Below, piece by piece: positions 3,203 to 57,465 of a DNA stretch of 64,000 nucleotides. Each line of letters begins with the position of its first letter. Positions within the stretch are counted from its first letter, which is position 1. The position numbers and the translations under genes were made by a program. Below the pieces are notes generated by a model. That model was not told the origin of the DNA, did no database searches, and saw only the letters and a program-made list of their open reading frames with translations. Source of the DNA: Cytobacillus pseudoceanisediminis (GTDB taxonomy: Bacteria > Bacillota > Bacilli > Bacillales > Cytobacillaceae); contig NZ_CP097349.1 in the NCBI RefSeq assembly GCF_023516215.1, positions 1,426,001-1,490,000 on the forward strand, in the 5' to 3' direction.

Positions 3203-3219
3203 GAAATGGGGGATTATTT

Positions 3220-4584: not shown

Positions 4585-4596
4585 GAGTTGAAATGA

Positions 4597-5613: not shown

Positions 5614-5625
5614 GAGGCAGAAAAA

Positions 5626-6279: not shown

Positions 6280-6313
6280 TTCTTTCAAAATATCCTGAAA
6301 GGAGCGTGGAATC

Positions 6314-13837: not shown

Positions 13838-13866
13838 ATTTCTGGTCCTAAGGAGACGTGAGCCGG

Positions 13867-14563: not shown

Positions 14564-14685
14564 TTTATCAAACAAATAGACTGATTATTATGAAAACTTA
14601 CCGAAATTTTCCTTGGCATCTGATAAGATTAACTTAATATAATTATAAAACTTGTCCAAGAGAAAAAGGAAAATGAGGTGAAGCA

Positions 14686-16580: not shown

Positions 16581-16592
16581 GGAGGAGAAAGA

Positions 16593-18029: not shown

Positions 18030-18045
18030 GTTGGAGGTGAATGTA

Positions 18046-20727: not shown

Positions 20728-20743
20728 TTGAATAAAATTGCCG

Positions 20744-20766
20744 AAAGGCAGAATATCTGCCTTTTT
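20744..20766 (+). terminator. Rho-independent terminator after tctC-like gene
   Basis: AAAGGCAG-AATAT-CTGCCTTT followed by T residues. Confidence 0.92.
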
Positions 20767-20918
20767 GCCTCCTGCAAGCTTCATGATAGATTTTCATAGA
20801 TTTGCTCGATAGGCTGCTGAAGATTTTTGTCGAAGTAAAACTAGTTTTATATAATCTTGAGAGATTTTGTTCAGGTTATTGACTGCCATTCCGACTGGCA
20901 GATATGATCGCCCTTGAA

Positions 20919-20949
20919 GCTGTATCCAGGATACAGCACACAGTATACA
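20919..20949 (+). promoter_or_regulatory. Candidate GntR operators
   Basis: Perfect palindrome GCTGTATCC-A-GGATACAGC (20919-20937) followed by AGTATACA-type symmetry at 20942-20949, about 45-70 bp before the GntR start. GTATAC-containing palindromes are typical for FadR-subfamily GntR proteins, so autoregulation is likely. Confidence 0.6.
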
Positions 20950-20991
20950 GCAACAGGCAGAGATAATTCATTTAAAGGAGGATAGGCAAAG

Positions 20992-21645
20992 ATGGTGCAG
21001 GGCCTGAAATTTACGCAGCCGCTTTATCAGCAAATCTATGACATTATAAAAAAATCCATTTTGTCAGGACAATTAAAGCCTGGTGAGAAGGTCAATGTTT
21101 CCCATCTGGCGGAAAAATATAATATAAGCCGGACCCCGTTAAGAGAAGCACTGCGCCAGCTGCAAATAGAAGGACTGCTGGTTCAGGATCAGCTGGGGCT
21201 ATCTATTGTAATACTGGATGAAACTGATTTTAAGGATTTATATGAAACTCGCATTATGCTGGAACCTCAAATAATGGGACTTGTTTTGAAAGCGATTACA
21301 GAAGAGCAGCTGAATTGCATTGAAGAAATTCTTGAAAGAGCTGAAGATGCCTTTTTGGAAGGAAACCATCTACTTTTACTTGAATGGAATGCTAAGTTTC
21401 ATGATCGGCTCTTGGATGCAAGCCCAAACAGGCGGGCAGTGCACTTGCTTAAGCAAGTACGTTCATTTCTTTTGCTATACCGGGCCAATATCCTAAAAAA
21501 CAACGAGCATAATAGAGAAATTCTTAAGGAACATAGCCAAATCCTTCATGCTCTTAAAGCCCGGGACGAGATAGCTGTCTACCAATCTGCAGCGAATCAT
21601 CTGCGCAACGATCTGGAACGCGGAATGAATATGATCTGCGAATAA
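20992..21645 (+). CDS. GntR-family regulator, FCD (FadR-like) subfamily
   Basis: 217 aa. Residues 10-75 form the winged helix (LYQQIYDIIKKSILSGQLKPGEKV, then ISRTPLREALRQLQIEGLL). The C-terminal two-thirds is an all-helical FCD ligand domain with the metal/ligand residues of WNAKFHDRLL and a late histidine (ANHLRND). It probably represses the adjacent CoA-transferase/hydratase/TctBA genes and itself through the palindromes just upstream. AAAGGAGGA ribosome-binding site. The effector is probably the acid imported by the TTT system or its CoA ester (inference). Confidence 0.9.
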   Translation: MVQGLKFTQPLYQQIYDIIKKSILSGQLKPGEKVNVSHLAEKYNISRTPLREALRQLQIEGLLVQDQLGLSIVILDETDFKDLYETRIMLEPQIMGLVLKAITEEQLNCIEEILERAEDAFLEGNHLLLLEWNAKFHDRLLDASPNRRAVHLLKQVRSFLLLYRANILKNNEHNREILKEHSQILHALKARDEIAVYQSAANHLRNDLERGMNMICE

Positions 21646-21802
21646 AAAAAGAGCATCTCCACTCGCCAAAATAGAAATGCTCCATTCTCATGAAAATCGA
21701 TTTTATTATAACATGCACAGATTATGAATGTATAGAAATGAACAGCTGCCGGTCACATCGGGCTCACTTCTGAGACAATATTTTCAAAATGGGGTGTTCT
21801 GA

Positions 21803-23023
21803 GTGGGACCATTACAAGGAATGAAAGTCCTTGATGCATCGCAAATCATGGCTGGTCCGTATTGCACTATGGTCCTTGCGGATCTCGGTGCGGAAGTCAT
21901 GAAAGTGGAGAAAGTGAATGGCGGAGACGATTCCCGCCAAATGGGCCCTTATGTAAACGGGGAATCTACCTGCTTTTTTCAGATAAACCGAAATAAAAAA
22001 AGCATAGCATTAAACCTTAAAACAAATGAAGGAAAAGAAATTTTCTATCAATTGGCTAAAGAAGCAGATGTTGTTGTTGAAAATTACCGCCCGGGAGTAA
22101 CAAAATCACTTGGCATTGACTTTGAAAGCCTAAAGAAGATTAATCCTGGGCTAGTCTACTGTTCTATTTCAGGTTATGGCCAGACTGGCCCTTATTCCCA
22201 TAAGGGCGGGTTCGATCTGGTAGCCCAGGGGATGACAGGGCTTATGAGCATGACCGGAGAAAAAGGAATGCGGCCAATGAAATCAGGCATCGCCGTTTAT
22301 GATATCGGGGCAGGCATAACTGCAGCCTATTCGATATTGGCAGCTTTTATCCATAAGATGAAGACAGGGGAAGGACAGCATGTGGATATTGCCCTGGCTG
22401 AGATCGGGCTTCCATGGTTTACGTGGGAGGCAGGGGCCTATTTTGCAGAAGGAACGATACCGGAAGCAACCGGCTGGAGGCACCGTGTGTCTGCTCCATA
22501 CCAGGCGGTTAAAACAAAATCGGGTTATATGATGCTTGGATGTGCCAATCAAAGGACATGGGAAAGATTTTGCGAAGATGTTGCCGAAAAGCCTGAATGG
22601 CTGACAGATCCGCGCTATAAAACCAATTTATTGAGAAACAAACATGTGAGTGAACTGGAAGAAGATATTGAGGCTGTATTAATGCATCAAGATACCAGAC
22701 ATTGGATTGATCTCTGTGAAAAAGCAGGGGTGCCTGCGGGACCAATCAACAACTTTGCAGAGGCGGTTCAGGATCCGCATTATGAAGCAAGAGGCATGAT
22801 TCAGGAAGTGGAGCATCCATTAATCGGAAAAATGAAGATGATTGGCATTCCCGCAAAATTTTCAAAAACTCCAGGTGAGGTGAAAACCCCCTCTCCTCTC
22901 TTCGGACAGGACACGATTGAAGTGTTGAATGGTTTGGGCTATGACGAAGATTCCATAAGAAATTTAACAAAATCAGGAGCTGTGAAGACCTTGGAAGAAA
23001 AGCCCATCCTGAATAAAAAATAA
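21803..23023 (+). CDS. CaiB/BaiF-family (class III) CoA-transferase
   Basis: 406 aa, family-typical length. Motifs: MKVLDASQIMAGPYCTMVLADLGAEVMKVE at the N terminus, RNKKSIALNLK, VVVENYRPG, and GQHVDIALAE, which carries the catalytic aspartate that forms the acyl-CoA anhydride. It moves CoA from a donor thioester to a free carboxylate. The start is GTG at 21803, preceded by GGGGTG. It is followed after 19 nt by an enoyl-CoA hydratase, so it likely activates the imported acid for hydration. The specific acid is unknown. Confidence 0.9.
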   Translation: MGPLQGMKVLDASQIMAGPYCTMVLADLGAEVMKVEKVNGGDDSRQMGPYVNGESTCFFQINRNKKSIALNLKTNEGKEIFYQLAKEADVVVENYRPGVTKSLGIDFESLKKINPGLVYCSISGYGQTGPYSHKGGFDLVAQGMTGLMSMTGEKGMRPMKSGIAVYDIGAGITAAYSILAAFIHKMKTGEGQHVDIALAEIGLPWFTWEAGAYFAEGTIPEATGWRHRVSAPYQAVKTKSGYMMLGCANQRTWERFCEDVAEKPEWLTDPRYKTNLLRNKHVSELEEDIEAVLMHQDTRHWIDLCEKAGVPAGPINNFAEAVQDPHYEARGMIQEVEHPLIGKMKMIGIPAKFSKTPGEVKTPSPLFGQDTIEVLNGLGYDEDSIRNLTKSGAVKTLEEKPILNKK

Positions 23024-23042
23024 CAGAAAGGTCGTTAGTGAT

Positions 23043-23863
23043 ATGTCTAAGAATCTGGAAGCATTCAGCAGGGAGAAGACGTACAGTGAACCGGTTTATC
23101 TTCAGGTTGAAGGAGAAATTGCATTCATATGCTTCAACCGGCCGGATAAAAGGAATGCCCTCAGTTATGAAATCTGGTTAAGGATTCCGCAGCTTATTGA
23201 GGAATGCGAAAATGATGCCAATGTAAAAGTAATCATTTTTAAAGGGACTGGATCTGCTGCTTTTTCGGCAGGCGCAGATATCAGCGAATTTAAGACATTA
23301 AGGTATACAGCAGAAGGCGCTGAAAAGTATAACAAGGCTACGATGATAGCAGAAAAGTCAATCATGAATGCATCTAAGCCAACGATTGCCATGATACAGG
23401 GCTTTTGTGTTGGCGGCGGATGTGAAATTGCGGTTGCCTGTGATTTTAGATTCTCTGATGAACAGGGCAATTTCGGCATTACTCCAGCAAAGCTTGGCCT
23501 AGTATACAATACACCGGGAACCAAAAATGTTGTAGATCTTGTCGGCCCGGCGAAAGCCAAGGACATTCTTTACACAGGAAGGCTCCTGGATGCCCGGGAA
23601 GCGTATCAGATTGGTCTCATCGATCGGATATATCCTGCAGAAGCCATTAAAGAGGAAACGGTCAGATATGCAGAGTTAATTTGCAGAAATGCTCAGCTGT
23701 CAGTCAGGGGTTCAAAAAAATCATTAATGAAGTGCTTGCCGGGGCCATTGAAGATTCACCTGAAACAGCCGAGCTTGTGATTGAATCGTTTCTTTCAGAG
23801 GATTATCGGGAAGGCGTGCGTTCATTTTTGGAAAAACGGAAGCCTGACTTTAAATATTCTTAA
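23043..23863 (+). CDS. Enoyl-CoA hydratase/isomerase family protein (apparent frameshift)
   Basis: About 273 aa after adding one A to the A7 run at 23714-23720 (RGSKKIINEVLAG). Crotonase fold: FNRPDKRNALSYE, the oxyanion segments AFSAGADISEF and IQGFCVGGGCEIAVACDFRF, then FGITPAKLGLVYNTPG and a C-terminal helix ending FLEKRKPDFKY. The position of the second general-acid glutamate appears to be occupied by other residues (TPAKLGL), so hydratase, isomerase or another crotonase reaction are all possible. It lies in an operon with the CoA-transferase and the TctBA permease. Confidence 0.88.
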
Positions 23864-23948
23864 GTGGATAGGAAATAAAGTGTGATTAAAATGGCAGGGA
23901 GGCTCACAGCCTCCTCCAATTAACTTACTGAATTTTGGGGGCTAAGAG

Positions 23949-24455
23949 ATGCAGCTGGAACGAAATCTTTCGATTATCATGATAGTCTTTTCGTCTTTTT
24001 TTCTGGTTATGTCACTCCAGGTGGAAAATAGGACAGGGAATTTCATTTCTGCAGGAACATGGCCGGCAGCTTTAATGATCCTGATGCTAATTCTATCAGT
24101 TATCCTGCTGATGAGGGCTCTAAAGGTGAAAAATGTTGAGAATATAAAGGGAGATGACATTGATTCAGCAGATGCAGATAATGAGGAGCAGCTCGTTCAT
24201 CCGAAAAAGTTCTTCCTCTTGTTTGCAGTTCTTGCCACCTATATTTTTATTCTTGGCTATGTTGGTTTTATTGCTGCAACGATTCTGGGGATTTTTGTGA
24301 TGGCGCTTTTGTTCGGTATGAAAAGCTATATTCGGGCTCTGCTGACAGGTATTCTGGCAACTGCCGGTTCTATCGTGCTGTTTCCCATTTTATTGAATCT
24401 GCCTTTCCCGCGGGGAACAGGGATTTTTTATTCACTTAGCTTGCTGTTTTATTAA
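23949..24455 (+). CDS. Tripartite tricarboxylate transporter small membrane subunit (TctB)
   Basis: 168 aa with four hydrophobic segments (residues about 10-28, 36-54, 86-108 and 115-160, the last likely double). DUF1468/TctB family. It pairs with TctA to form the permease of a solute-binding-protein-dependent secondary transporter. A charged loop (DDIDSADADNEEQLVHPKK) separates the two halves. It is directly upstream of tctA with a 30-nt gap. Confidence 0.88.
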   Translation: MQLERNLSIIMIVFSSFFLVMSLQVENRTGNFISAGTWPAALMILMLILSVILLMRALKVKNVENIKGDDIDSADADNEEQLVHPKKFFLLFAVLATYIFILGYVGFIAATILGIFVMALLFGMKSYIRALLTGILATAGSIVLFPILLNLPFPRGTGIFYSLSLLFY

Positions 24456-24485
24456 TAGCCAACTTTAATAAAAGAGGTGAACTTA

Positions 24486-25996
24486 ATGATAGAAGGACTT
24501 TTAGGCGGTTTTGGGAATCTTTTTCAGCCTTTTAATTTTTTCATTCTTATGGTCGGTGTCCTGCTTGGTTTCATTGGAGGAGGGATACCGGGTATAAGCG
24601 GAACCATGCTGGTCATTATTCTTCTTCCTGTCAGTTATGCAATGGATCCGGCTGCAGCATTTTTGCTGCTGACCTCCATTTATGCCACATCTGTTTTTTC
24701 AGGGTCTATAAGCGCTATTCTGTTTAGAACCCCAGGCACACCTGAAGCGGTAGCAACCGTTTTCGACGGGTATCCCATGGCGAAGAAGGGTGAAGGGGGA
24801 AAGCCCTCGGCATTTCCATCTTCAGTTCCGCCACAGGGGGTGTTTTTGGAACGCTGGTATTAATCTTTTTGACGCCGCTTCTCGCCTCTTTTGCGCTTAG
24901 ATTTTCGTCCCCGGAGTATTTTGCGCTTGCTCTAATGGGTCTGACGGTAGTAGCTTCCTTGAGTGCAGGCAACCTGGTTAAAGGATTCATTGGTGTTTCC
25001 TTCGGTTTGTTTATTGCCACTATTGGCATCGATACAATGACTGGTGTGCCAAGATTTACATTCGGTTCAGGCCAGTTAATGTCGGGTATTGACTTCATTC
25101 CTGTTCTGATTGGATTATTCGCTATATCAGAGGTGCTGAGAAGAGTTCAGCAGGTCCACAAGGTGAATGCAAAGCAAAAAGTGAGTTCCGAACTTCCAAA
25201 CTGGAATGTCATGAAACGAATTTCTGGGGTCATTGGACGTTCCTCCTTATTAGGTGTATTTATTGGAATCCTTCCGGGAATAGGTGCAACTACTGCAGCC
25301 ATGCTCAGCTACAGTGAAGCTGCCAGGTGGTCAAAAAGATCAAAGGAATTTGGAACTGGAATTCCAGAAGGGGTAGCTGCACCAGAGTCTGCCAATAATG
25401 CAGCAGCAATGGGTGCCATGGTTCCTTTGCTTTCCCTGGGAATTCCGGGAAGCGCCACAACCGCCATACTGCTTGGCGCCTTTATTCTGCATGGAATCCA
25501 GCCGGGGCCTTTGATGTTTACCACACAGGGTTCGCTCATTTATACCATCCTGATGGGTCTTCTTGTTGCCAACTTGCTGATTTTAGTCATTGCCAAGCCG
25601 TTTATTTCGGTATTCTCTAAAATTTTGCAAGTGCCCTACACAATCATTGGACCACTTATCGTTCTCTTTTGTATTGTTGGCACTTTCGCAGTCAGGAATT
25701 CGATTTTTGATGTGGCTATGATGCTGGTATTCGGAATTATCGGCTACTATCTGGAAAATGCCAAATTTCCGCTGGCACCTATCGTGCTTGGCGTTGTGCT
25801 CGGTCCCATTGCTGAAGAACAGTTCAGAAGGGCCATGCAGATGTCGAACAATGATATTTCCATCTTCTTCACAAGGCCGATTGCCTTAACCTTCATTGTA
25901 TTATCCATCATCAGTATATTGTATCCATTCATTAATAAGTGGATTAAGAAGCGCAAAAACAATGCGAGCGATTCAGATCAAACTGTAGCTTCATAA
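24486..25996 (+). CDS. Tripartite tricarboxylate transporter large permease (TctA) (apparent frameshift)
   Basis: About 503 aa after correction, the standard TctA size, with 10-12 membrane segments. Conserved motifs: GFIGGGIPGISGTM near the N terminus, LFRTPGTPEAVATVFDGYPMA, and the repeat-related GILPGIGATTAAMLSY and GIPGSATTAILLGAF. The frame breaks at 24795-24802 (G5 then A3); one extra G or A gives GEGGKALGISIFSSATGGVFG. The start is ATG 24486 behind AAGAGGTG. It works with TctB and a TctC-type lipoprotein, probably the one at 19738. Confidence 0.9.
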
Positions 25997-26014
25997 GAAG
26001 GAGGCGTTCCGGAA

Positions 26015-26557
26015 TTGATCTTAGATTTTGAAGGACTGAAGCCAGACGTTCATGAAACCGTCTATTTGGCACCTAACACCTATATTATCGGCAATGTAAA
26101 ACTGGAGGCTGATGTGTCCGTTTGGTTCAATTCTGTCCTGCGCGGGGACAATGATTCCATCAGAATCGGAAGGGGCACCAATATTCAGGAGGGAACGATG
26201 ATTCATGTCGATGAAGGTTACCCTGTGAGCATTGGACAGAATGTCACAATCGGCCATAATTGTGTGATTCATGGATGTACCATTGAAGATGGTGCCCTGA
26301 TCGGCATGGGAGCGATTATACTTAACGGTGCCATCATTAAGAATGGTGCAGTCATTGCGGCAGGAGCAGTAGTAGGGGAAAATAAAGTGATTGAGAAAAA
26401 CATCCTTGCAGCAGGTGTTCCTGCGAAAGCCTTAAAGCCGGTGAAGGAGGAACTGCAGGAGCGTATCATAGCAGGGGCAGAATTTTATCAAAAAAACGCT
26501 GTAAAGTTTCGCCGGGCTGGTATTGCTTCCGGGATGATTGATGCAGAAAATAAGTAA
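26015..26557 (+). CDS. Gamma-carbonic-anhydrase-like hexapeptide-repeat protein (CaiE/PaaY family)
   Basis: 180 aa, left-handed beta-helix trimer family. Hexapeptide repeats run from VKLEADVSVWFNSVLRG to IEKNILAAGVPAKALKPV. Metal-site histidines are visible in MIHVDEGY and IGHNCVIHGC. Relatives are gamma carbonic anhydrases or, in carnitine and phenylacetate pathways, thioesterase-like helper proteins. The start is TTG at 26015 with AAGGAGG 11 nt upstream. It sits last in the CoA-transferase/hydratase/TTT operon, a placement reminiscent of caiE after caiB and caiD. Confidence 0.87.
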   Translation: MILDFEGLKPDVHETVYLAPNTYIIGNVKLEADVSVWFNSVLRGDNDSIRIGRGTNIQEGTMIHVDEGYPVSIGQNVTIGHNCVIHGCTIEDGALIGMGAIILNGAIIKNGAVIAAGAVVGENKVIEKNILAAGVPAKALKPVKEELQERIIAGAEFYQKNAVKFRRAGIASGMIDAENK

Positions 26558-42775: not shown

Positions 42776-42966
42776 ACTTGCCAAAAGAAAAGCGGAAGCG
42801 CCTTGCCCACGAAGGAACGCAGTCTAAGAACGCCGCGTCCTGTGGCAACGTCTGCATGACCCCCATCCTCCCAAAAGCTGCCGCTTTTGGTCGTGCGATG
42901 ATTATGCTGACGAAGCCTTCCTTGTCCTGGGGGCATCACCTCGAGGGGGTAGGCTGCTTGCGCTAG
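42776..42966. repeat. Probable dispersed intergenic repeat element
   Basis: GC-richer than its surroundings and with imperfect inverted ends (AGCGGAAGCGCC...TTGCGCT). It contains internal hairpins, CCAAAAGC-TGCC-GCTTTTGG and GCGTCCTGTGGC. The AAAAGCGGAAGCGCCTTG start is a block I recognise from repeated intergenic elements of Bacillus-type genomes. An open frame across it (42778-42966) has no family or ribosome-binding site. Copy number cannot be checked from one window. Confidence 0.6.
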
Positions 42967-47273: not shown

Positions 47274-48158
47274 TTAAGCTATTCCCGCCTTCATCAACAT
47301 CCCATCAAGCGGCCGTTCCATCACTGTTTCCATCCACTTTGCTGTTTCCAGTACTGAAGGAAGGTCTGTCCCTGTATTAACACCCATTCCGTGGAACATA
47401 TTGATCATATCTTCTGTACAAACATTTCCGACTGCTTTTGGGGCAAATGGACATCCGCCAAGCCCGGCAATGGAGGAATCAAAGCGGCGGACACCTGCCT
47501 GATATCCCGCCAAAACATTTGCCAGTCCCAAACCGCGTGTATTATGGAAATGGAGGCCAAGCGAAAGGTCCTTTCCAAAGGCATCAAAAAATGACTCTGC
47601 TATTTTTTGGACCTGGATGGGATAAGCCATACCCGTTGTATCAGCGAGGGTGATTTCCGTACAGCCGGCTTCTATAAATCTCTCTGCCACTTTCAGGACG
47701 TTTTCCAAAGGTACATCACCTTCAAAAGGGCAGCCGAATGCCGTTCCCAACACCCCTGCCACACCCTTTCCTGATGCAGCTCCTTCCTTAATCACTAAAG
47801 AGAGTTCTCCAACAGCCTGCTCAACAGTCCTTTTCACATTCCGTAAATTGAATGAATCACTTGTTGTTGTAACAACATGAAGAAAATCCACATCGGTCTT
47901 GAGTGCCCGTTCAAGACCAGAGCGGCTTAAAACCAGGCCGCCGAACCGGACGCCATTTCTTTTAGGAAGCGATTTCAAAACTTCCTCTGCATCAGCCATG
48001 GGAGGAACAACCTTCGGATTGACAAAAGAAACAGCTTCTATATTGCGGATGCCGGAATCAATTAATCTTGTAATCAAATCAACTTTTGTTTCCGTTGGAA
48101 CAATTTTGCACTCATTTTGCAATCCATCGCGCGGACCAACTTCACAAATTTCAATCAT
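47274..48158 (-). CDS. HMG-CoA lyase-family protein (possible citramalyl-CoA lyase)
   Basis: 294-aa TIM-barrel lyase. EVGPRDGLQNE carries the catalytic arginine-aspartate pair, LHFHNTRGLGLAN the metal histidines, and AGLGGCPFAPKAVGNVCTED the catalytic cysteine loop. Relatives cleave 3-hydroxy-3-methylglutaryl-CoA to acetyl-CoA and acetoacetate, or related acyl-CoAs. With a CoA-transferase and LeuCD-like genes divergently encoded, cleavage of citramalyl-CoA to acetyl-CoA and pyruvate is a plausible alternative. It overlaps the GntR stop by 4 nt, so the two are co-transcribed. Confidence 0.88.
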   Translation of the reverse strand: MIEICEVGPRDGLQNECKIVPTETKVDLITRLIDSGIRNIEAVSFVNPKVVPPMADAEEVLKSLPKRNGVRFGGLVLSRSGLERALKTDVDFLHVVTTTSDSFNLRNVKRTVEQAVGELSLVIKEGAASGKGVAGVLGTAFGCPFEGDVPLENVLKVAERFIEAGCTEITLADTTGMAYPIQVQKIAESFFDAFGKDLSLGLHFHNTRGLGLANVLAGYQAGVRRFDSSIAGLGGCPFAPKAVGNVCTEDMINMFHGMGVNTGTDLPSVLETAKWMETVMERPLDGMLMKAGIA

Positions 48159-48826
48159 TTTACTTCCTCCTTTAGCAGATGAATGTTTTTAATTTGTTCC
48201 AGGTGCTTCAAAACATGATCACGGCCTTGATAAATATGCTCATGCATGGCAATGCGGGCACGCTCGGGTTCCCGATTTTTGATTGCTTCCAAAATGGTTT
48301 TATGTACCTCTAGGGATTGTTTAAGCTGAAAGCTGTTATACCAATAGAAGGATCTGAACACGATTGGAACCACGACAACCTTTGAAATATGGAAATGTAT
48401 ATGCTCATTTTTTGAAGCAGCCACTATCGTTTCATGAAACTTCTGGTTTACCTGAACAATATCTTTCAGGCTGTCCATATCAGATTCCACATATCGGCTA
48501 ATGGCTTCTTCATATAAAATATTAGCTCTTTCCATTTCCAGCAGATCATTTTCTGTCCGGTGTATCGCCGCCTGACTGGCAGCGTACCCTTCCAGAAGAG
48601 TGCGCAGGTCATAGATTTGCCGGATATCATCTTTTGTAAAATGCCTTACGCTGACACCGCGCTTTAATGGAATGACGAGGCCTTCTGCTTCAAGCTGCTT
48701 AATAGCCTCTCTAATAGGAGTGCGGCTAAGATTCATTTCTTTAGCCAATGATTCCTCAGCAAGCCGCATGCCAGGGACAAATTTCCCTTCAATAATGGCA
48801 TCTCTAATAAATTCGTATGCATCCAT
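48155..48826 (-). CDS. GntR-family regulator, FCD subfamily
   Basis: 223 aa. Winged helix at residues 1-70 (MDAYEFIRDAIIEGKFVPGMRL; LSRTPIREAIKQLEAEGLV), then a helical FCD domain with the ligand residues in QKFHETIVAASKN and a late histidine (AMHEHIYQ). Three copies of TTGTATACAA occur between this gene and the divergent CoA-transferase, two of them over that promoter, which strongly suggests repression of both directions. The effector is probably the pathway acid or its CoA ester. Confidence 0.9.
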   Translation of the reverse strand: MDAYEFIRDAIIEGKFVPGMRLAEESLAKEMNLSRTPIREAIKQLEAEGLVIPLKRGVSVRHFTKDDIRQIYDLRTLLEGYAASQAAIHRTENDLLEMERANILYEEAISRYVESDMDSLKDIVQVNQKFHETIVAASKNEHIHFHISKVVVVPIVFRSFYWYNSFQLKQSLEVHKTILEAIKNREPERARIAMHEHIYQGRDHVLKHLEQIKNIHLLKEEVK

Positions 48827-48844
48827 ATCAACACCTCAATTGTA

Positions 48845-48854
48845 TTGTATACAA
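48845..48854. promoter_or_regulatory. GntR operator copy 1
   Basis: TTGTATACAA, perfect palindrome 19 bp upstream of the GntR start: autoregulation site. Confidence 0.75.
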
Positions 48855-48952
48855 ACAGAAGTATTATTACAACAAATATTCTGAATATTTATTATAAAAC
48901 ATGATTATATAAGGCTTTTTAATGAAATTTCAGAAAAATAATAAAATTTACA

Positions 48953-48990
48953 TTGACTTATTGTATACAAACAATTAAATTTGTATACAA
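48953..48990 (+). promoter_or_regulatory. Promoter with two GntR operators before the CoA-transferase operon
   Basis: TTGACT (48953-48958), 17 nt, TAAATT (48976-48981). TTGTATACAA occurs at 48961-48970, in the spacer, and at 48981-48990, just after the -10, exactly 20 bp apart, so two dimers could bind the same DNA face and block the polymerase. Confidence 0.75.
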
Positions 48991-49046
48991 GATTAAGAAA
49001 ATTAAAACTTAACAGTGCATTCAAGAAATATCAGGGAGGGAAATCC

Positions 49047-50249
49047 ATGTCAGAAAAACAGCTTCCACTGGAAGATATCAGAGTCATCGAGCTGGGCACG
49101 CTTTTAGCAGGACCATTCTCCGGACGGCTTCTAGGTGACTTCGGTGCTGAAATTATTAAAGTCGAGCCTCCGGGTAAATCAGATCCCATGAGAAATTGGG
49201 GAAAATCAAAAGATGGAATAGGGCTTTGGTGGCCTATTCAATCGCGGAATAAAAAATCGATTTCGTTAAATCTCAGGGAGGAAGAAGGACAGCAGGTTTT
49301 AAGGGAGCTTATTAAAGAAGCCGATGTTGTCATTGAGAATTTCCGCCCGGGGACAATGGAAAAATGGAATCTATCCTATGAAGCACTTTCCGAAATCAAC
49401 CCTAAATTAATCATGGTACGGACTTCGGGCTATGGACAGACAGGACCCTATAAGCATCGAGCAGGATTTGGCAGCGTCGGTGAAGCAATGGGCGGGCTCA
49501 GAAATGTAACCGGTTTCCCTGACAGGCCGCCATCAAGAATTGGTGTATCAATGGGTGATACGCTGGCTGCACTTTTTGCTACAATTGGCTGTCTTGTTGC
49601 ATTACACGAGAGGGAGCGCTCCGGAAAGGGACAGGTTGTCGATACGGCCCTCTATGAATCTGTATTCTCCGTAATGGAAAGCATTATTCCGGATTATCTT
49701 TTAGCAGGATACATAAGGGAAAGGATGGGCAATATCCTGCCAGGTGTAGCTCCCTCCAACATTTACTTCACGCAGGACAAAACTTACATCGTTATAGGAG
49801 CCAATGCAGATGGAGTGTTCCGCAGGTTATGCGAGGCCATGGAGCAGCCGGAATTGGCAGATGACACAAGATTCGCGACCCACCATGCAAGAGGAGAAAA
49901 CATGAAGCTTCTTGATTCCATGATCGAGGAATGGACAAAGACTCTCCCTGCTAAAGAAGCGCTTAAAATTCTTGAAGATAAGGGCGTTCCATCAGGGCTC
50001 ATTTATACAGCTAAAGATATTCTGGAAGATCCGCATTATAAGGAACGCGACATGATTATTAAAGTAGATCATCCGCAGCTGGGAGAATTCCCGATGCCTG
50101 GCATTGTGCCAAAATTAAGCAGGACACCAGGGGAAGTGAAGCATGCCGGCCCGGAAGAAATGGGCAAGCATAATCATGAAATATACACTGGCCTTCTTGG
50201 GTTCGATGAAGAGAGATTAGAAGAATTGAAGAAAAATAATATCATTTAG
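49047..50249 (+). CDS. CaiB/BaiF-family CoA-transferase (possible succinyl-CoA:citramalate CoA-transferase)
   Basis: 400 aa. Motifs: IRVIELGTLLAGPFSGRLLGDFGAEIIKVEPP, VVIENFRPGTMEKW, RTSGYGQTGPY and GQVVDTALYES, with the catalytic aspartate. This pattern is close to the class III transferases acting on C4/C5 hydroxy-diacids (malate, citramalate, itaconate). The start is ATG 49047 after AGGGAGGG, not the upstream TTG frame. Operon with leuCD-like genes 12 nt downstream. Confidence 0.9.
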   Translation: MSEKQLPLEDIRVIELGTLLAGPFSGRLLGDFGAEIIKVEPPGKSDPMRNWGKSKDGIGLWWPIQSRNKKSISLNLREEEGQQVLRELIKEADVVIENFRPGTMEKWNLSYEALSEINPKLIMVRTSGYGQTGPYKHRAGFGSVGEAMGGLRNVTGFPDRPPSRIGVSMGDTLAALFATIGCLVALHERERSGKGQVVDTALYESVFSVMESIIPDYLLAGYIRERMGNILPGVAPSNIYFTQDKTYIVIGANADGVFRRLCEAMEQPELADDTRFATHHARGENMKLLDSMIEEWTKTLPAKEALKILEDKGVPSGLIYTAKDILEDPHYKERDMIIKVDHPQLGEFPMPGIVPKLSRTPGEVKHAGPEEMGKHNHEIYTGLLGFDEERLEELKKNNII

Positions 50250-50261
50250 GAGGGCTTCAAA

Positions 50262-51689
50262 ATGGGGCGGACCTTATATGAGAAAATCTGGGAAAAACAT
50301 GTAGTCGTGGATGAACAGGATCAGCCTTCCCTTTTGTACATTGATCTTCATTTAGTGCATGAGGTCACATCACCACAGGCATTTGAAGGCTTAAGAATTA
50401 AGAATCGCAAAGTGAGAAGGCCGGATCTGACTGTGGCTACCATGGATCACAGCATCCCAACAACCGACCGTTCTCTTCCTTTTAAAGACCAAATCGCCAA
50501 AAAGCAAGTTGACGCTCTGGCAAACAACTGCAGGGAGTTTGGCATACAGCTTTTTGACCTGGATAGCCGAAATCAGGGTATTGTACACGTCATTGCCCCG
50601 GAGCTTGGCTTAACACAGCCCGGGATGACCATTGTCTGCGGTGACAGCCATACCTCTACACATGGAGCTTTCGGGGCACTTGCCTTTGGCATTGGCACAA
50701 GTGAAGTAGAACATGTCCTTGCCACTCAGACATTAAAGCAATTTAAATCCAAAACATTAGCAATTAATATACATGGCACTTTGCCGCAAGGAACTACTGC
50801 CAAAGATCTTATACTTTCAATCATTGGAAATTATGGCCACGATTTTGCTACTGGCTATGTTGTGGAGTATCGCGGTGAAGCGATTCGTAATTTAACAATG
50901 GAAGAGCGAATGACCATTTGCAATATGAGCATTGAAATGGGAGCAAGGGCAGGACTGATTCAGCCTGACGAAAAAACCTTCAATTATTTGAAAGGGAAAC
51001 AAGCATTTCCTGATGGAATGGAGTGGGAAGAGGCTCTTGCAGAATGGAAGAAATATTATACTGACGAAGATGCCGAATTTGATCTGACTGCTGACTTTAA
51101 TGCAGATGAAATAATCCCGCAGGTTACCTGGGGGACAAATCCAGGCCAGGTGGCAGGTATTACAGAAGTTATACCGCTAATGGAAGATCTGCCTGCAGAT
51201 CAAATAGGACCAGCTAAAAAAGCATTAAAGTACATGGGCCTTCAGCCAGGAACACCCATTACAGAAATAGGAATCAATAAAGTCTTTATCGGCTCCTGTA
51301 CAAACAGCCGAATAGAAGATCTTCGAAAAGCGGCAAAAATCGTAAACGGTTACAAAGTTGCTGAACAGGTGGAAGCGCTAGTTGTTCCTGGTTCACAGCT
51401 TGTAAAAATGCAGGCAGAAGCTGAAGGTCTAGATCAAATTTTTATCAGCGCCGGTTTTCAATGGAGAGAAGCAGGATGCAGCATGTGCCTCGGTATGAAT
51501 GAGGATTTGGTTCTTCCGGAAGAACGCTGTGCATCGACCTCCAACCGGAATTTTGAAGGCAGGCAGGGAAGAAATGCGAGGACCCATTTGGTCAGTCCTG
51601 AAATGGCTGCTGCTGCAGCGATTGCCGGCCGGTTTATAGATGTAAGGGAGTGGCCTGTTAAATATAGCAAGGAGGTCAGTGTACAATGA
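50262..51689 (+). CDS. 3-isopropylmalate dehydratase-family large subunit (LeuC-like)
   Basis: 475 aa, full-length. Active-site signature [20 protein letters not shown] and 4Fe-4S cysteines in [14 protein letters not shown] and GCSMCLGMN are intact. Sequence is very close to leucine-pathway LeuC, yet the gene lies in a catabolic operon with a CoA-transferase and transporters rather than with leuA/leuB. Hydration of citraconate or mesaconate to citramalate is therefore as likely as a leucine role. It overlaps the small subunit by 4 nt. AGGAGGGC ribosome-binding site. Confidence 0.9.
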
Positions 51690-52291
51690 AGTCTTTTACC
51701 AGATCTACAGGCATAGTTGCTCCACTTGATGCTGCAAATGTTGATACAGATGCCATCATTCCAAAACAGTTTTTAAAAAGAATTGAAAGAACTGGGTTTG
51801 GCGAATTCCTCTTCTACGAATGGCGATACGAAGATGGCAGGGAAAAACCGGATTTCATTCTAAATCGGGAACCTTACCGGAATGCACCGATTCTGCTGGC
51901 AAGGAAAAACTTTGGCTGCGGCTCATCCAGAGAGCACGCACCCTGGGCGATTGCAGAATATGGGATTAGAGTGATCCTGGCATCATCATTCGCAGATATT
52001 TTCTATAATAATTGTTTTAAAAATGGCATCCTGCCAATAGTCTTGCCTGAAAAGGATATTGAAGTTTTGTTTCAAAAAAGCAATGAATCACCTGGTTATC
52101 AGCTGAGCGTAGATTTAGAGAATCAAAGAATTGAGGACTCCTTCGGGTACATGGTCGAATTCGATATCGTTTCTTATCGAAAAGATCAGCTGTTAAAGGG
52201 GCTGGACGAAATCGGGGCCACGCTTCAATCAGCTGAATTAATTGACTCCTATGAATCGGCACATAAGATTTTCTATAAGCTGGAGGTTTAA
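51686..52291 (+). CDS. 3-isopropylmalate dehydratase-family small subunit (LeuD-like)
   Basis: 201-aa swivelling domain. [21 protein letters not shown] and the hallmark [18 protein letters not shown] are present. It pairs with the LeuC-like subunit translated just upstream (ATGA-type overlap). The 26-nt gap to the next gene has AAAGGGAGG. Confidence 0.92.
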
Positions 52292-52317
52292 AATTTCAGC
52301 AAAAGGGAGGAAGCCAT

Positions 52318-52578
52318 ATGGAAAACAGAACGATAAAAGAACCTATTCGAAAAAAATGGATTTGGATAGTCCTCGCCATCATTACACTTGGAGTAGTACC
52401 CTGGTATTTTCCGGATGCAGCAGCTGAGCCCTATATTCTAGGGTTTCCGTTATGGGCATTTATTTCGACAGCTTTTTCCATTATCATGTGCGGATATTTA
52501 AGCTGGCTTTGTGTGAATGAGTGGAATATCGTAGAGGAACAGGAAGAAGCCGAAAAAGCAAAGGGGGATAAATCATGA
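52318..52578 (+). CDS. DUF3311 small membrane protein
   Basis: 86 aa, two hydrophobic helices (about residues 13-32 and 38-62) with charged ends. DUF3311 proteins are encoded directly before sodium:solute symporters and are thought to be accessory subunits. Here it overlaps the symporter start by 4 nt, so translation is coupled. Confidence 0.85.
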   Translation: MENRTIKEPIRKKWIWIVLAIITLGVVPWYFPDAAAEPYILGFPLWAFISTAFSIIMCGYLSWLCVNEWNIVEEQEEAEKAKGDKS

Positions 52579-54083
52579 ATGATTTAGCTTTTGCAGGCAC
52601 AGATGGGATCATTATTTTATCAGCCTTTGCCATAATCATGCTGTTAATTGGATACTTATCGGGCAGAGGTGAGAAGAACCTTCATCACAGTCTTTCAGGG
52701 TACTATCTTGCCGGAAGGAATCTCGGTTTTATCGCACTCTTTTTCACCTTATATGCGACGCAATATAGCGGGAATACCATTGTCGGATATGCCCCAACAG
52801 CATATAGGACAGGTTTCTCGTGGATTCAGTCCATTTCATTTATGACAATCATTATCGGAATCTATTTACTGTTTGCACCAAGATTATATGTCATTGCAAA
52901 GAAAAGAAACTTTGTTACACCTACTGACTGGATCGATCACCGCTTCAAATCGAAAGCAGTCACATTGCTTAGTATTTTTCTTATGCTTTGGGGGCTTGGA
53001 AACTATCTTTTAGAACAGCTTGTAGCAATCGGCCAGGCTGTATCAGGGATGACAGGCGGAACAATCCCATACCAAATAGCTGTTATCGTCTTTGTAGCTG
53101 TTATGCTTGCCTATGAGTGGATGGGCGGAATGAAGGCAGTTGCTTTTACGGATGTTATGCAGGGTATTGTTCTTATGATCGGAATCATTGTCTTCCTCAT
53201 CGGCGGCTTGTATCTCGTCGGAGGCAATTTTTCTGATGTTACAAGGTATGTAGCAGATCTGGAGCCTGCAAAAACGGCAGTCCCTCCAATGGAAGTGAAT
53301 ATCAACTGGCTGAGTATGCTCCTGCTTGTTGGACTGGGAGCAAGTATTTATCCGCATGCTGTTCAAAGAATATATTCTGCGCAAAGCGAGAAAACCCTGA
53401 AGAAATCATTTGCCCGCATGGCATGGATGCCGCCAATTACAACTGGGCTTGTATTTATGGTAGGCATTATTGGAATTATGCTTTTTCCTGGACTGGATAA
53501 GACTGGGTCTGAACAGCTCGTAGGACTGATGGCCAATGAGATCGCTGCCATTAATCCATTTTATTACTGGATTATGATCATCTTCTTTGGCGGGATTGTT
53601 GCTGCCATTATTTCTACAGCCGACTCAGTTTTGCTCAGCTTTTCATCCATGCTCTCAAATGACGTATATGGAAAATTCATCAATCCTAAAGCAACTGAAC
53701 ATAAGAAGGTCATGGTCGGAAAAGTGTGCGGAATCATTGCCATCATCTTTCTTCTGTGGATTGCCTGGAATCCACCGGGAACGCTATATGAAATTTTCGT
53801 CCTAAAATTCGAATTGCTTGTTCAGGTTTTCCCGGCTTTTGTACTGGGCTTATATTGGCAGCGTTTATCAGGAAAGGCTGTCTTCTGGGGGATGCTGGCA
53901 GGCGCTATATTAGCAGGATTGCTTACTCTTACAGGCTATAAAACCATCTATGGAATTCACGGCGGCGTCATTGGATTAGGATTGAACTTCTTTATCTGTA
54001 TTGCAGGTTCTCTATTAGGTCCTGCTGTTTCAAAGAGCAAAGTTCTGGAGGAAGATTTGTCTGCACTCAATTTAAAGGCATAA
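52575..54083 (+). CDS. Sodium:solute symporter (SSS family)
   Basis: 502 aa, about 13 membrane segments, typical for SSS. LAGRNLGFIALFFTLYATQYSGNTIVGYAPTAY forms the first substrate/Na+ helices, and GGIVAAIISTADSVLLSFSSML, in helix 8, carries the conserved Na2-site serines. Substrate unknown; the operon suggests a C5 dicarboxylate or a related short acid. Confidence 0.9.
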   Translation: MNDLAFAGTDGIIILSAFAIIMLLIGYLSGRGEKNLHHSLSGYYLAGRNLGFIALFFTLYATQYSGNTIVGYAPTAYRTGFSWIQSISFMTIIIGIYLLFAPRLYVIAKKRNFVTPTDWIDHRFKSKAVTLLSIFLMLWGLGNYLLEQLVAIGQAVSGMTGGTIPYQIAVIVFVAVMLAYEWMGGMKAVAFTDVMQGIVLMIGIIVFLIGGLYLVGGNFSDVTRYVADLEPAKTAVPPMEVNINWLSMLLLVGLGASIYPHAVQRIYSAQSEKTLKKSFARMAWMPPITTGLVFMVGIIGIMLFPGLDKTGSEQLVGLMANEIAAINPFYYWIMIIFFGGIVAAIISTADSVLLSFSSMLSNDVYGKFINPKATEHKKVMVGKVCGIIAIIFLLWIAWNPPGTLYEIFVLKFELLVQVFPAFVLGLYWQRLSGKAVFWGMLAGAILAGLLTLTGYKTIYGIHGGVIGLGLNFFICIAGSLLGPAVSKSKVLEEDLSALNLKA

Positions 54084-54107
54084 AAGCCAAAAAAGAGATG
54101 ATAAATT

Positions 54108-55354
54108 ATGAGTAATTCACTGGCAGAAAAGCAATTTGCCAGCAATGAAAATCCATGGAAAATGCTATTATTTCTTCTGCTGGCACAGCTGATGGTAGCA
54201 TTTGTTGGCAGAAGCATTGGACCCTTGGGAGTTTTAATCGGGGAGGATCTTTCCCTGACCAAGTCGCAAATCGGCATGCTCCCGGCGGCTCTCTTTTGGG
54301 CCAGGCGATCATTTCAGTTCCAGCCGGCTTTCTGACTGACCTTGCAGGATCCCGTAAATTATTGGTCCTGGCGTCGGCCTTAATGGGGTTAGGCTTTCTG
54401 TTCATGACATTGCTTCATGATTTCTGGCTTGTCCTGTTATTAATTGTTATCGGCGGAATTGGGTATGGATCCATGCACCCGATCACAAATAGAGGCATCA
54501 TTTATTGGTTCCCGCTCAAACAGCGGGGCACAGCAATGGGAATAAAACAAACTGGCATCACAGCAGGATCAGCTCTGGCCAGTTTGATACTGCTTCCGCT
54601 TAGTGTAACTTTTGGCTGGAGATTTGTACTTCTTACGGCTTGCCTTCTATTATTGGCGGGCGGCTTCGTCTCCTATCATTTTTACCGGGATCCGCCTGAA
54701 TTGGAGCAAGCGAAAGGCAGCAGCATGAGTTTGCTCCAATTTTACAAATCAATGTTTAAAATGTTTAAAAATAAAGCTTTGATGCTGATAAGCTTTAGTG
54801 CTCTCGGTTTGAATGGCACACAAATGTGCTTAAATACGTATATTGTTTTATTTGCCTATGAACAGCTGAATATTTCCATCTTTTTATCAGGTATTCTCCT
54901 GGTTATATCTGAAATATCCGGAACTATTGGCAGGGTTGCCTGGGGAATCATTAGCGACAGGCTATTTGAAGGAAAGCGTGTTGTGATCCTAATGATCATT
55001 ACCATAATGACCGCTTTGGCCAGTACGTCAGCTGCGGTCATTACTTCAGCCCCTTTTTGGGTAATGGCTCCCATTACAGCTCTCTTTGGATTTGCAGCTT
55101 CAGGCTTCAATGGAATCTGGATGAATCTTGCAAGTGAATTGGTGCCGAAAGAACAAGCTGGCATCTCAAGCGGGATCAGTATCACTCTAGGGTCAGCCGG
55201 GGCCATTATCATTCCGCCATTATTTGGTTTAATCGTGGATCAGACGGGGCAATTTTCTTCCGGGTGGTTTTTAATCACAGGTATGATGTTTATAGTTTTT
55301 ACTTTACTGACAACATTAATGATTATGAATAAAAAGAATAACTTTGTTATTTAA
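54108..55354 (+). CDS. MFS transporter (apparent frameshift)
   Basis: About 415 aa when one T is added to the T4 run at 54294-54297 (PAALFLGQAIISVPAGFLTD). Twelve membrane segments; VAFVGRSIGPLGVLIGEDLSLTKSQIG and GTAMGIKQTGITAGSAL resemble the anion/organic-acid MFS carriers (ACS/OxlT-like). It is the second transporter in this operon. The break is at a homopolymer, so the gene is probably intact. Confidence 0.86.
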
Positions 55355-55374
55355 AAATGGAAGGAGTGATCCGA

Positions 55375-55971
55375 ATGGAATTTAATCCCTCGGAACTTGG
55401 AGAAAAAGAAGTGTACAAATTATTAACCGGATCTGTCGTCCCAAGGCCGATTGCCTGGGTTTCCACAGTATCTGAGGATGGCAGCCAGAATCTCGCACCT
55501 TTCAGTTTTTTCAGTGTTGCTTCAAGAAATCCTCCTATGCTCTGTTTTTCTATTGGTCCCGGGGTTGGCGAGAGGGAAGGTACAGAAAAAGATACATTGG
55601 TCAATATCCGGGCGACAAAAGAGTTTGTCATCAATGTAGTTCCCGCGCCATTAGGAAACCAAATGCAAAAAAGTGCAGAGAATCTCCCGAGTAATGCTGA
55701 TGAGTTTGAAACAGCAGGGCTTTCCGCTGCTGAAAGTCATTTAGTCGCCCCTAAGAGGGTAAAAGAAGCACCAATCCATATGGAATGCAAACTCGAACAA
55801 ATTATTAAGCTGGGAAGCGATCACCTTATTATTGGGAGAATGGTACATTATCATATTGACGATGATTACTACCTCGGTAATTATAAAGTGAATTTAGAAA
55901 AACTGCAGCCTCTTGGAAGGCTGGCAGGAAACTATAGTGAAAGCAGTGAATTCTTCAAGCTGCCGAGATAA
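55375..55971 (+). CDS. Flavin reductase-like FMN-binding split-barrel protein
   Basis: About 198 aa, flavin-reductase/NTAB-like family. LTGSVVPRPIAWVSTVSEDG and NLAPFSFFSVASRNPPML, which bind FMN, are conserved. ATG 55375 follows GGAAGGAGTG; an upstream in-frame ATG at 55357 overlaps that site. Probably the last gene of the operon, before a terminator. The link to acid catabolism is unclear. Confidence 0.87.
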   Translation: MEFNPSELGEKEVYKLLTGSVVPRPIAWVSTVSEDGSQNLAPFSFFSVASRNPPMLCFSIGPGVGEREGTEKDTLVNIRATKEFVINVVPAPLGNQMQKSAENLPSNADEFETAGLSAAESHLVAPKRVKEAPIHMECKLEQIIKLGSDHLIIGRMVHYHIDDDYYLGNYKVNLEKLQPLGRLAGNYSESSEFFKLPR

Positions 55972-56094: not shown

Positions 56095-57465
56095 ATGGAA
56101 AACTACGCGGATCTCATTCAAAAACAAAGAAATTTCTTCACCCAGGGTAAAACAAAGGATGTCACATTCCGAATGGAAGCGCTCGGCAAGCTTCGTTCGG
56201 TCATTAAGCAGCATGAGCAGGAATTGATGGATGCGTTAAAGGCGGATCTCAATAAAAGTGAGTTCGATGCGTACTTGACTGAGATTGGAATCCTCCTGGA
56301 GGAAATCCGTTTTACCTTGAAACATTTAAAAAAATGGGCCAAACCCAGAAAAGTGAAGTCATCGATTGCACAATTCGGTTCGAAAAGCTGCATATATCCT
56401 GAACCATATGGAGTTGCGCTAATCATAGCTCCTTGGAATTATCCTTTCCAGCTGGCGATTGCACCCCTGATCGGAGCGATAGCCGCAGGGAATTGCGCCA
56501 TCCTGAAGCCATCGGAATTGACCCCGCAGACTTCGGCATTGCTTTCAAAAATGATCAGCAATCATTTCCCTCAAGAATTTATTTCAGTTGTTGAAGGCGG
56601 CGCAGCAACAAGCACAGCCCTATTAAATGAAAAGGTCGATTATATTTTCTTCACAGGCAGTGTCCCTGTCGGAAAAATCATCATGGAAGCAGCATCCAGG
56701 CACCTTACTCCTGTTACCCTTGAATTGGGAGGGAAGAGCCCGTGCATCGTGCATGAAGATGCCAACTTGAAACTTGCTGCGAAGAGAATTGCCTGGGGAA
56801 AATATATTAATGCCGGCCAAACTTGTGTGGCTCCGGATTATATTTATGTTCACAGCAGAATTAAAGATGAATTCCTGAAAGAATTAAAACAATCTATTCA
56901 GGAGTTTTATGGAAAGAACCCGATTGCATCCGGCCAATTCACGAGAATCGTCAGTGAGAAGCACTTCAGCCGTCTCACCAAATTTTTAACCGATGGCACC
57001 ACTGTTCACGGGGGAAGGCATGATTGGTGCTCTCTCACCATAGAACCAACTGTACTTGGGGATATTACATGGGCTGATGAGGTCATGCAGGATGAAATAT
57101 TTGGACCAATTCTGCCGGTGCTGGAATATGATGACTTGTCCGGAATGATTTCAGAGGTTACAGCACGCCCGAAACCTTTAGCGCTATATATCTTCACTGA
57201 AAGTGAGGATGTCCAAAACCAGATTCTAAGCAGCATTTCCTTTGGAGGGGGATGCATTAATGATACCGTTTATCATCTTAGTTCACCGTATCTGCCTTTC
57301 GGGGGAGTAGGGGAGAGCGGGATTGGAGCTTATCATGGCAAGGGAAGCTTTGATGTGTTCTCACATGAAAAAAGCATACTGAAGCAAACCACCAAATTCG
57401 ATTTGCCATTCCGATATCCGACTACAAAAGATGCATTGAAAAAAGTGAAGCTTTTTATAAAATAA
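56095..57465 (+). CDS. Aldehyde dehydrogenase, YwdH/class-3 type
   Basis: 456 aa from ATG 56095 (GGAGG 7 nt upstream); an upstream in-frame start at 56008 has no ribosome-binding site and overlaps the terminator. IAPWNYPFQLAIAPLIGAIAAGN, FTGSVPVGK, the general-base glutamate in TLELGGKSP and the catalytic cysteine in NAGQTCVAPDY are all present. The short N-terminal arm and KHLKKWAKPRKVKS mark the class-3-like family acting on medium/long-chain or aromatic aldehydes. Monocistronic. Confidence 0.93.
   Translation: MENYADLIQKQRNFFTQGKTKDVTFRMEALGKLRSVIKQHEQELMDALKADLNKSEFDAYLTEIGILLEEIRFTLKHLKKWAKPRKVKSSIAQFGSKSCIYPEPYGVALIIAPWNYPFQLAIAPLIGAIAAGNCAILKPSELTPQTSALLSKMISNHFPQEFISVVEGGAATSTALLNEKVDYIFFTGSVPVGKIIMEAASRHLTPVTLELGGKSPCIVHEDANLKLAAKRIAWGKYINAGQTCVAPDYIYVHSRIKDEFLKELKQSIQEFYGKNPIASGQFTRIVSEKHFSRLTKFLTDGTTVHGGRHDWCSLTIEPTVLGDITWADEVMQDEIFGPILPVLEYDDLSGMISEVTARPKPLALYIFTESEDVQNQILSSISFGGGCINDTVYHLSSPYLPFGGVGESGIGAYHGKGSFDVFSHEKSILKQTTKFDLPFRYPTTKDALKKVKLFIK

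Follow-up and report, generated by a model that had tools for sequence, protein, structure and literature searches.

Conserved LeuCD, CoA-transferase and HMG-CoA-lyase-family operon of Cytobacillus pseudoceanisediminis: a candidate route for the degradation of citraconate and (R)-citramalate

The itaconate pathway of Pseudomonas and Burkholderia (Ict, Ich and the CitE-type lyase Ccl, together with a mesaconase) activates its substrate with a CoA-transferase and leads through citramalyl-CoA to acetyl-CoA and pyruvate. According to the available part of PMC9875883, where mesaconate, citraconate and itaconate are called antibacterial and immunomodulatory, Pseudomonas putida with the P. aeruginosa cluster used itaconate, (S)-citramalate, mesaconate and methylsuccinate, but not (R)-citramalate or citraconate. 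This S-specific route is also described in the accessible text of PMC12290011. In the R series, the available part of PMC8307300 lists an (R)-citramalyl-CoA lyase (EC 4.1.3.46, K18314) and its CoA-transferase (EC 2.8.3.20, K18313), and the accessible portion of PMC3572532 mentions that a lyase gene was cloned from Chloroflexus. Here we analyse a locus of Cytobacillus pseudoceanisediminis that joins a LeuCD-type hydratase, a class III CoA-transferase and a lyase of the 3-hydroxy-3-methylglutaryl-CoA (HMG-CoA) lyase family, located in a 64-kb stretch of DNA (hereafter the window, C1:1426001-1490000 of a 5.69 Mb genome in two contigs). The Chloroflexus lyase reportedly belongs to the same family, as Friedmann et al. 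are said to have found in 2007, and we know of no LeuCD partner for the (R)-citramalate enzymes of that organism. For our locus we predict the two reactions of the Chloroflexus succinyl-CoA:D-citramalate CoA-transferase and (R)-citramalyl-CoA lyase, a likeness of predicted reactions and of this reported family. The general plan is also that of the itaconate pathway, although the lyase and the hydratase are of unrelated families and the route is predicted to be R-specific.

Our proposal, to which we assign a probability of roughly 0.57, is that the operon would be inducible and would take branched C5 dicarboxylates of the R series, namely citraconate and (R)-citramalate, via (R)-citramalyl-CoA to acetyl-CoA and pyruvate. 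The SSF symporter and/or the MFS carrier would import citraconate and/or (R)-citramalate, and the LeuCD paralogue would form (R)-citramalate from citraconate by hydration. Next, the class III CoA-transferase would place CoA, probably donated by succinyl- or acetyl-CoA, on the carboxylate at C4, and the lyase would split the resulting (R)-citramalyl-CoA. With the CoA on C4, the hydroxyl would be beta to the thioester and a retro-Claisen cleavage would release acetyl-CoA and a 2-oxo acid, here pyruvate. In the loci without LeuCD citramalate itself may be imported. The GntR regulator would repress both arms at TTGTATACAA sites and be released by the substrate or its CoA ester.

Several considerations lead to this scheme. 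By the aconitase mechanism LeuCD acts on malate-type alpha-hydroxy acids, and therefore its product is expected to be a malate derivative. Citramalate, as a tertiary alcohol, is not open to oxidation by a dehydrogenase, and a lyase is therefore required. Cleavage in the methyl case yields central metabolites, which makes further enzymes unnecessary. Citramalate is made in its R form by the synthase CimA. In Escherichia coli, according to the available part of PMC6561320, LeuCD makes citraconate from CimA-made citramalate. This conversion is a known side reaction of the isopropylmalate isomerase; no citramalate synthase was found over the cut-off in our genome (best 225.8 vs 450 bits). Regarding the stereochemistry, the accessible text of PMC6689899 gives the TIM-barrel HMG-CoA lyases as (S)-specific and S in citramalyl-CoA as corresponding to R in HMG-CoA. 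From this we infer that (S)-HMG-CoA is the counterpart of (R)-citramalyl-CoA, which fits the R series. The initial annotation had proposed citraconate or mesaconate as the starting acid. The route from citraconate through citramalate and citramalyl-CoA to acetyl-CoA and pyruvate still fits best, and we narrow it to the (R)-enantiomer, whereas mesaconate and itaconate are less supported because no Ich-type hydratase or fumarase was found among the nine proteins of the region that were scanned with NCBIfam and Pfam profiles (these were not looked for elsewhere in the genome).

All seven genes of the locus were found where they had been predicted, in two divergent arms: the lyase and the FCD-GntR on the minus strand, and the CoA-transferase, LeuC, LeuD, SSF and MFS genes on the plus strand, where a flavin-reductase-like (FlavR) gene follows (Table 1). 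The gene linkage is kept in other genera, and therefore a chance grouping can be ruled out. The most likely start of the CoA-transferase is the ATG at 49047 (MSEKQ...), downstream of a GGGAGGG-like ribosome site; the mechanically called start, TTG 48981, coincides with one of the palindromes described below. The transcription unit probably reaches the FlavR gene, which begins 2 bp past the MFS stop. We found no promoter-like or terminator-like site in the gap between LeuD and SSF (scan of 52250-52620), and no terminator-like site in the scans downstream of FlavR or of the lyase gene. The nearest named lyases are those of Bacillus sp. NTK034 (95%) and of Cytobacillus (89-93%).

Table 1. Features of the locus; coordinates are positions within the 64-kb window.
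Feature	Position	Strand	Basis
HMG-CoA-lyase-family (DRE-TIM) lyase, proposed (R)-citramalyl-CoA lyase	47274..48158	-	NCBIfam PRK05692, Pfam HMGL-like
FCD-family GntR regulator	48155..48826	-	Pfam FCD + GntR; 4-bp overlap with lyase gene
Operator-like palindrome TTGTATACAA, copy 1, GntR side	48845..48854	.	sequence match, conservation
Promoter-like TTGACT-17-TAAATT before CoA-transferase	48953..48981	+	consensus match only
Operator-like palindrome TTGTATACAA, copy 2, in promoter-like spacer	48961..48970	.	sequence match
Operator-like palindrome TTGTATACAA, copy 3, touching end of -10-like hexamer	48981..48990	.	sequence match
Class III (CaiB/BaiF, Frc-type) CoA-transferase, proposed (R)-citramalate CoA-transferase	49047..50249	+	Pfam CoA_transf_3
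LeuC-type hydratase large subunit	50262..51689	+	leuC model; 63% identity to leu-operon LeuC of same genome
LeuD-type small subunit	51686..52291	+	leuD model; 4-bp overlap with leuC; GSSRE at residue 79
SSS-family Na+/solute symporter (SSF), proposed dicarboxylate uptake	52575..54083	+	TIGR00813, 185 bits, cut-off 184
MFS carrier, two frames in this assembly	54109..55354	+	profile scan; single 415-aa open reading frame in genome G048
Flavin-reductase-like protein (FlavR), PF01613, probable last gene of unit	55357..55971	+	Pfam
Aldehyde dehydrogenase (ALDH), doubtful unit member	56095..57465	+	profile scan

The initial annotation had regarded LeuC and LeuD as leucine-pathway relatives recruited into catabolism, a view that depended on the presence of another leuCD in the genome. 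This was borne out, since a leuB-leuC-leuD operon lies at 5.22 Mb (L001) with a LeuA-type gene just upstream. The cluster proteins pass the leuC and leuD models and share with the isopropylmalate isomerase the family, a substrate-loop stretch and the Fe-S ligand motifs; at the motif positions, cysteines 346, 406 and 409 of LeuC are candidate ligands, a role that we assume for them. They differ from the leu-operon pair in their separate place in the LeuC tree, their catabolic-type operon and their FCD-GntR neighbour. A canonical LeuC, with 61-64% identity to the cluster LeuC, was present in all 36 genomes of the genus. A second LeuC (79-100% identical) was found in 15 of the 17 genomes whose lyase orthologue reaches 80%, and in none of the other 19. 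In the remaining two of the 17, either the lyase has no other core genes with it (G037, L052) or LeuC is fragmented (G059, L046). We also counted LeuC in 15 genomes behind named loci and then checked LeuA in 12 of these. In the drafts of Alkalibacillus salilacus (G194), Piscibacillus halophilus (G195) and Planomicrobium okeanokoites (G196), whose completeness is not stated, the single LeuC match was the cluster copy and no LeuA was over the cut-off (best 68, 61 and 65 bits vs 598.7), while the other nine genomes have LeuA over the cut-off.

In a LeuC tree of 62 rows, 2 label changes suffice for the 31 cluster rows, versus 20.8 in shuffles. They do not form one clean clade, as they lie within a 33-row group (support 80/100; an inner 28-row group has 98/98) that also includes L201 (Pseudalkalibacillus caeni, not beside the lyase) and L192 (Melghirimyces, unassigned). 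On L201, a locus of 4404 bases (G199:C4), this LeuC, the third of its genome, and the LeuD with it adjoin, as judged by eye, a HyuB-like end and a gene resembling enoyl-CoA hydratase. Separate aconitase-family genes of another subfamily (LeuC 30-35%, LeuD 46% identity) were seen downstream of the operon in L063 (14614-17547).

A second LeuCD for leucine biosynthesis in a fortuitous position would also pass the leuC and leuD models, and in one metagenome-assembled genome (MAG, G202), which may be incomplete, we found LeuA and only the cluster LeuC. Nevertheless, we regard this explanation as highly improbable and rejected a leucine role, given the separate leu operon, the linkage, the separate tree place and the retention in three drafts without LeuA over the cut-off; the cluster LeuCD is neither tied to leuA nor orthologous to the leu-operon copies. 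The comparison supports a putative recruitment of LeuC/LeuD relatives into catabolism.

The lyase scores 308.1 bits to PRK05692, whose cut-off is 246, although this is a subfamily model and passing it does not prove HMG-CoA lyase activity. Residues R10/D11, E41, D173, H203/H205 and C236, which we take to be catalytic, are identical in the alignment to human HMGL, as would be expected of an (R)-citramalyl-CoA lyase (EC 4.1.3.46) if the known enzyme is of this family, as reported. The family and the catalytic residues are also those of the HMG-CoA lyases YngG/LiuE, but the cluster lyase reads HFHNT where the human, B. subtilis and second genomic HMGL read HxHDT, and it has a CoA-transferase neighbour. 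The window-type lyases in general carry HFHNT in place of the HxHDT of classic ones. Most of the rows below 60% identity in our motif survey had been retrieved with patterns that include LHFHNTRG, so that the motif count is biased. Among 32 rows whose loci had been selected without this pattern (L069-L074, L220-L244; places hand-picked, not random), a tally by hand gave the following: HxHN occurred 10 times with and 4 times without a CoA-transferase within 2.5 kb, HxHD 5 times with and 13 times without.

The second HMGL, at 190 kb of the genome, scores 352.8 bits to PRK05692 and has about 40% identity to the cluster lyase, which rules out the latter as the sole HMG-CoA lyase of the genome. By eye, this second gene adjoins a thiolase-like gene. 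In a quick tree of 125 rows, where the window lyase was represented by a 99% identical same-species copy, the window-type lyases form a 51-row side (support 94) and the second HMGL is on the other side. Lyase orthologues of at least 65% are present in 30 of 193 genomes of the family, including our own. No HpcH/HpaI (CitE-type) lyase (PF03328) was over the cut-off genome-wide (best 22.6 bits vs 25), which leaves the (S)-specific Ict-Ich-Ccl system without its lyase here.

The CoA-transferase has a CoA_transf_3 domain (427.8 bits, scanned from two codons upstream of ATG 49047) and the conserved Asp of class III enzymes: its D171, presumably catalytic, aligns with an Asp of human SUGCT and of formyl-CoA transferase chains.

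We compared 44 related loci with a lyase above 57% identity, 15 of them named, not counting the window and leaving out 11 named duplicates (L076-L085, L096). Gene presence means open reading frames of at least 110 amino acids over set identities, and some loci are cut by contig ends. The CoA-transferase was found in 41 of the 44, an FCD-GntR relative in 39, SSF (both with and without LeuCD) and MFS in 31 each, LeuC and LeuD in 28 each, a FlavR relative in 25 and an ALDH relative in 13, these 13 all being from the window's own genus. Among the 39 loci with lyase, GntR and CoA-transferase, LeuC was present in 27 and missing in 12; one of the latter is cut by the contig (L087) and two keep LeuC or LeuD remnants (L046, L090). 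CoA-transferase and lyase therefore usually form the core, and LeuCD seems to be added to it as an optional feeder. Such optional presence would be expected if the CoA-transferase acts on the LeuCD product.

Between the GntR and CoA-transferase genes lie 3 of the 7 copies of TTGTATACAA of the whole genome, inside 146 bp; the pattern read backwards has 6 copies genome-wide. The first copy is 18 bp above the GntR start and the other two are at the spacer and the -10-like end of TTGACT-17-TAAATT; the region has 8 promoter-like matches vs a mean of 2.1 in shuffles. In all 39 non-redundant loci with lyase above 58%, GntR above 40% and CoA-transferase above 60% identity, at least one exact copy was found between GntR and CoA-transferase (85 exact copies over a total of 16,387 bases, a figure that takes in 60 bases of each gene); five further loci with such a lyase but without a qualifying GntR or CoA-transferase were left uncounted. 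In L095 this stretch has 4,948 bases, as amidase and hydantoinase genes are located in it. A palindrome conserved beside the regulator's own gene and the divergent promoter is a putative operator and points to the FCD-GntR as a local regulator. One of the four other copies of the genome (L247, position 2593) is 18 bp above another FCD-type GntR gene, and therefore related regulators may share a TTGTATACAA-type motif. That gene adjoins, by eye, a gluconate-kinase-like gene.

In a few relatives the core has additional neighbours. Amidases were found in 4 and HyuA in 3 of the 44 loci. An N-carbamoylsarcosine-amidase-like hydrolase and HyuA accompany the CoA-transferase and LeuCD in L095, L136 and L066 (same contig as L096); in L095 all are in one apparent operon, a HyuB-like gene was recognised by eye in L095 and L136, and the nearest solved chain to the L066 hydrolase is 26st (E 1.2e-62). 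Two proteobacterial MAGs (L121, L122) have CoA-transferase, lyase, amidase and HyuA, with no LeuCD match in the short stretches available. L065 carries an HpaB-type monooxygenase, and there a TGTATACA site fronts the amidase/HpaB block, which suggests that the block may be under common control with the operon. These neighbours are homologues of hydantoin/creatinine-type modules (HyuAB, N-carbamoylsarcosine amidohydrolase) and of NicF/NicE-type genes. In the 64-kb window, amidase, HyuA, HpaB and maleate isomerase had no tblastn match.

The amidase and hydantoinase-type enzyme suggest that imides or half-amides may be precursors in these relatives; we take such neighbours, HpaB and maleate isomerase included, as hints to the substrate and not as proof. 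A tentative extension, which we consider possible but well short of probable, is a full, R-specific mirror image of the itaconate pathway. Some species would open citraconimide or citraconamate by an ATP-dependent HyuAB-type enzyme and the N-carbamoylsarcosine-amidase-like hydrolase, followed by LeuCD, CoA-transferase and HMGL-type lyase under one FCD-GntR operator code. The same genes of L066, L095 and L136, and the monooxygenase of L065, could instead serve dialkylmaleates (such as 2,3-dimethylmaleate or methylethylmaleate, in the form of imides derived from pyrroles or tetrapyrroles), giving a longer acyl-CoA and pyruvate. Since amidase and HyuA are so rare among the related loci and have no match in the window, this is quite improbable.

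Several observations weigh against the assignment to citraconate and (R)-citramalate. The NCBI model names the lyase HMG-CoA lyase, with a score above its cut-off, and the CoA-transferase is about equally near SUGCT (hydroxymethylglutarate), YfdE and 4ed9. Breakdown of 3-hydroxy-3-methylglutarate or 3-methylglutaconate, in which a SUGCT-like CoA-transferase and a true HMG-CoA lyase would lead to acetoacetate, would explain both. However, aconitase-type chemistry needs an alpha-hydroxy (malate-type) acid on the Fe-S cluster, and HMG is none. No acetoacetate enzyme was found among the nine scanned proteins, and with another HMG-CoA lyase in the genome and HFHNT in place of HxHDT, we see little likelihood in this route.

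Regarding LeuCD, only 4 positions of LeuC and 2 of LeuD set the cluster apart from the leu-operon copies at 85%. Because of these few group-specific positions, sequence cannot separate citraconate from maleate or isopropylmaleate, and reading the substrate from LeuCD specificity residues was dropped. The few positions would suit a catabolism of 2-/3-isopropylmalate, where LeuCD keeps its classical reaction and 2-isopropylmalate, once activated, is cleaved into acetyl-CoA and 2-oxoisovalerate by a lyase that does belong to the LeuA/HMGL superfamily. Indirectly, the amidase, hydantoinase and maleate-isomerase neighbours favour small maleate-type acids instead, and we consider this catabolism distinctly unlikely.

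Such acids include maleate itself. LeuCD would convert it to D-malate, the CoA-transferase would form D-malyl-CoA and the lyase would yield acetyl-CoA and glyoxylate. In L057 (same contig as L083, and with an SsuA-like ABC system) and L058, a maleate cis-trans isomerase homologue (PDB 4fq7, E 1.7e-85) is found downstream of LeuCD and would also suit maleate, which the amidase modules of relatives could supply as well. A known CoA-transferase is listed for both (R)-malate and (R)-citramalate (PMC8307300, available part). Nevertheless, a secondary alcohol such as D-malate is open to oxidation by a dehydrogenase, and therefore its activation with CoA would be unneeded; no glyoxylate-using gene was found among the nine scanned proteins. 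HMG-CoA lyases, moreover, use tertiary 3-hydroxyacyl-CoA, so that the maleate route seems unlikely to us.

The 12 loci without LeuC also speak against the assignment to citraconate and (R)-citramalate, as does the fact that the scheme leaves FlavR and ALDH without a role. Finally, the MFS gene is not in one piece here: its ATG 54109 is in one frame and the remainder in another (54155-55354, an open reading frame without a true N-terminus). In the same-species genome G048 it is intact, and since leuB (L001) and, by eye, the pairs 12672/13214, 15492/15917 and 18031/18862 look split alike, assembly indels are likely.

Elsewhere in the window, we noticed by eye ethanolamine-utilisation-like genes (1754-7843) and aminotransferase-, sigma-54-activator- and glycolate-oxidase-like genes, several of them seemingly frame-split (12672-19377). 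A second carboxylic-acid cluster (19738-26557) comprises a TctC-like binding protein, a GntR-type regulator, a class III CoA-transferase (21803-23023, found by family search, the others by eye), an enoyl-CoA hydratase-like gene, a TctA-like permease and a gamma-carbonic-anhydrase/CaiE-like protein. The sole Rfam match above the gathering score is a Bacillaceae-1 RNA (RF01690, 54.3 bits) at 42808-42869.

An HMGL-type citramalyl-CoA lyase, part of the arrangement that the initial annotation considered new, is not new in itself, as EC 4.1.3.46/K18314 is already listed in the source cited at the outset and the Chloroflexus enzyme is reportedly of this family. Among the titles and abstract openings that our searches of the open-access literature listed, none showed a citraconate operon of LeuCD, CoA-transferase and HMGL-type lyase. 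What is new, as far as these searches show, is a LeuCD that serves as a dedicated front end, a palindrome conserved among the loci, and the extension by amidase and hydantoinase genes. The operon is a candidate for the degradation of citraconate and (R)-citramalate, the missing half that the characterised Pseudomonas system did not perform, and the regulator with its palindrome could serve as a biosensor. The operon also suggests that catabolism took over a biosynthetic Fe-S hydratase, which was retained even in species that seem to have lost leucine synthesis.

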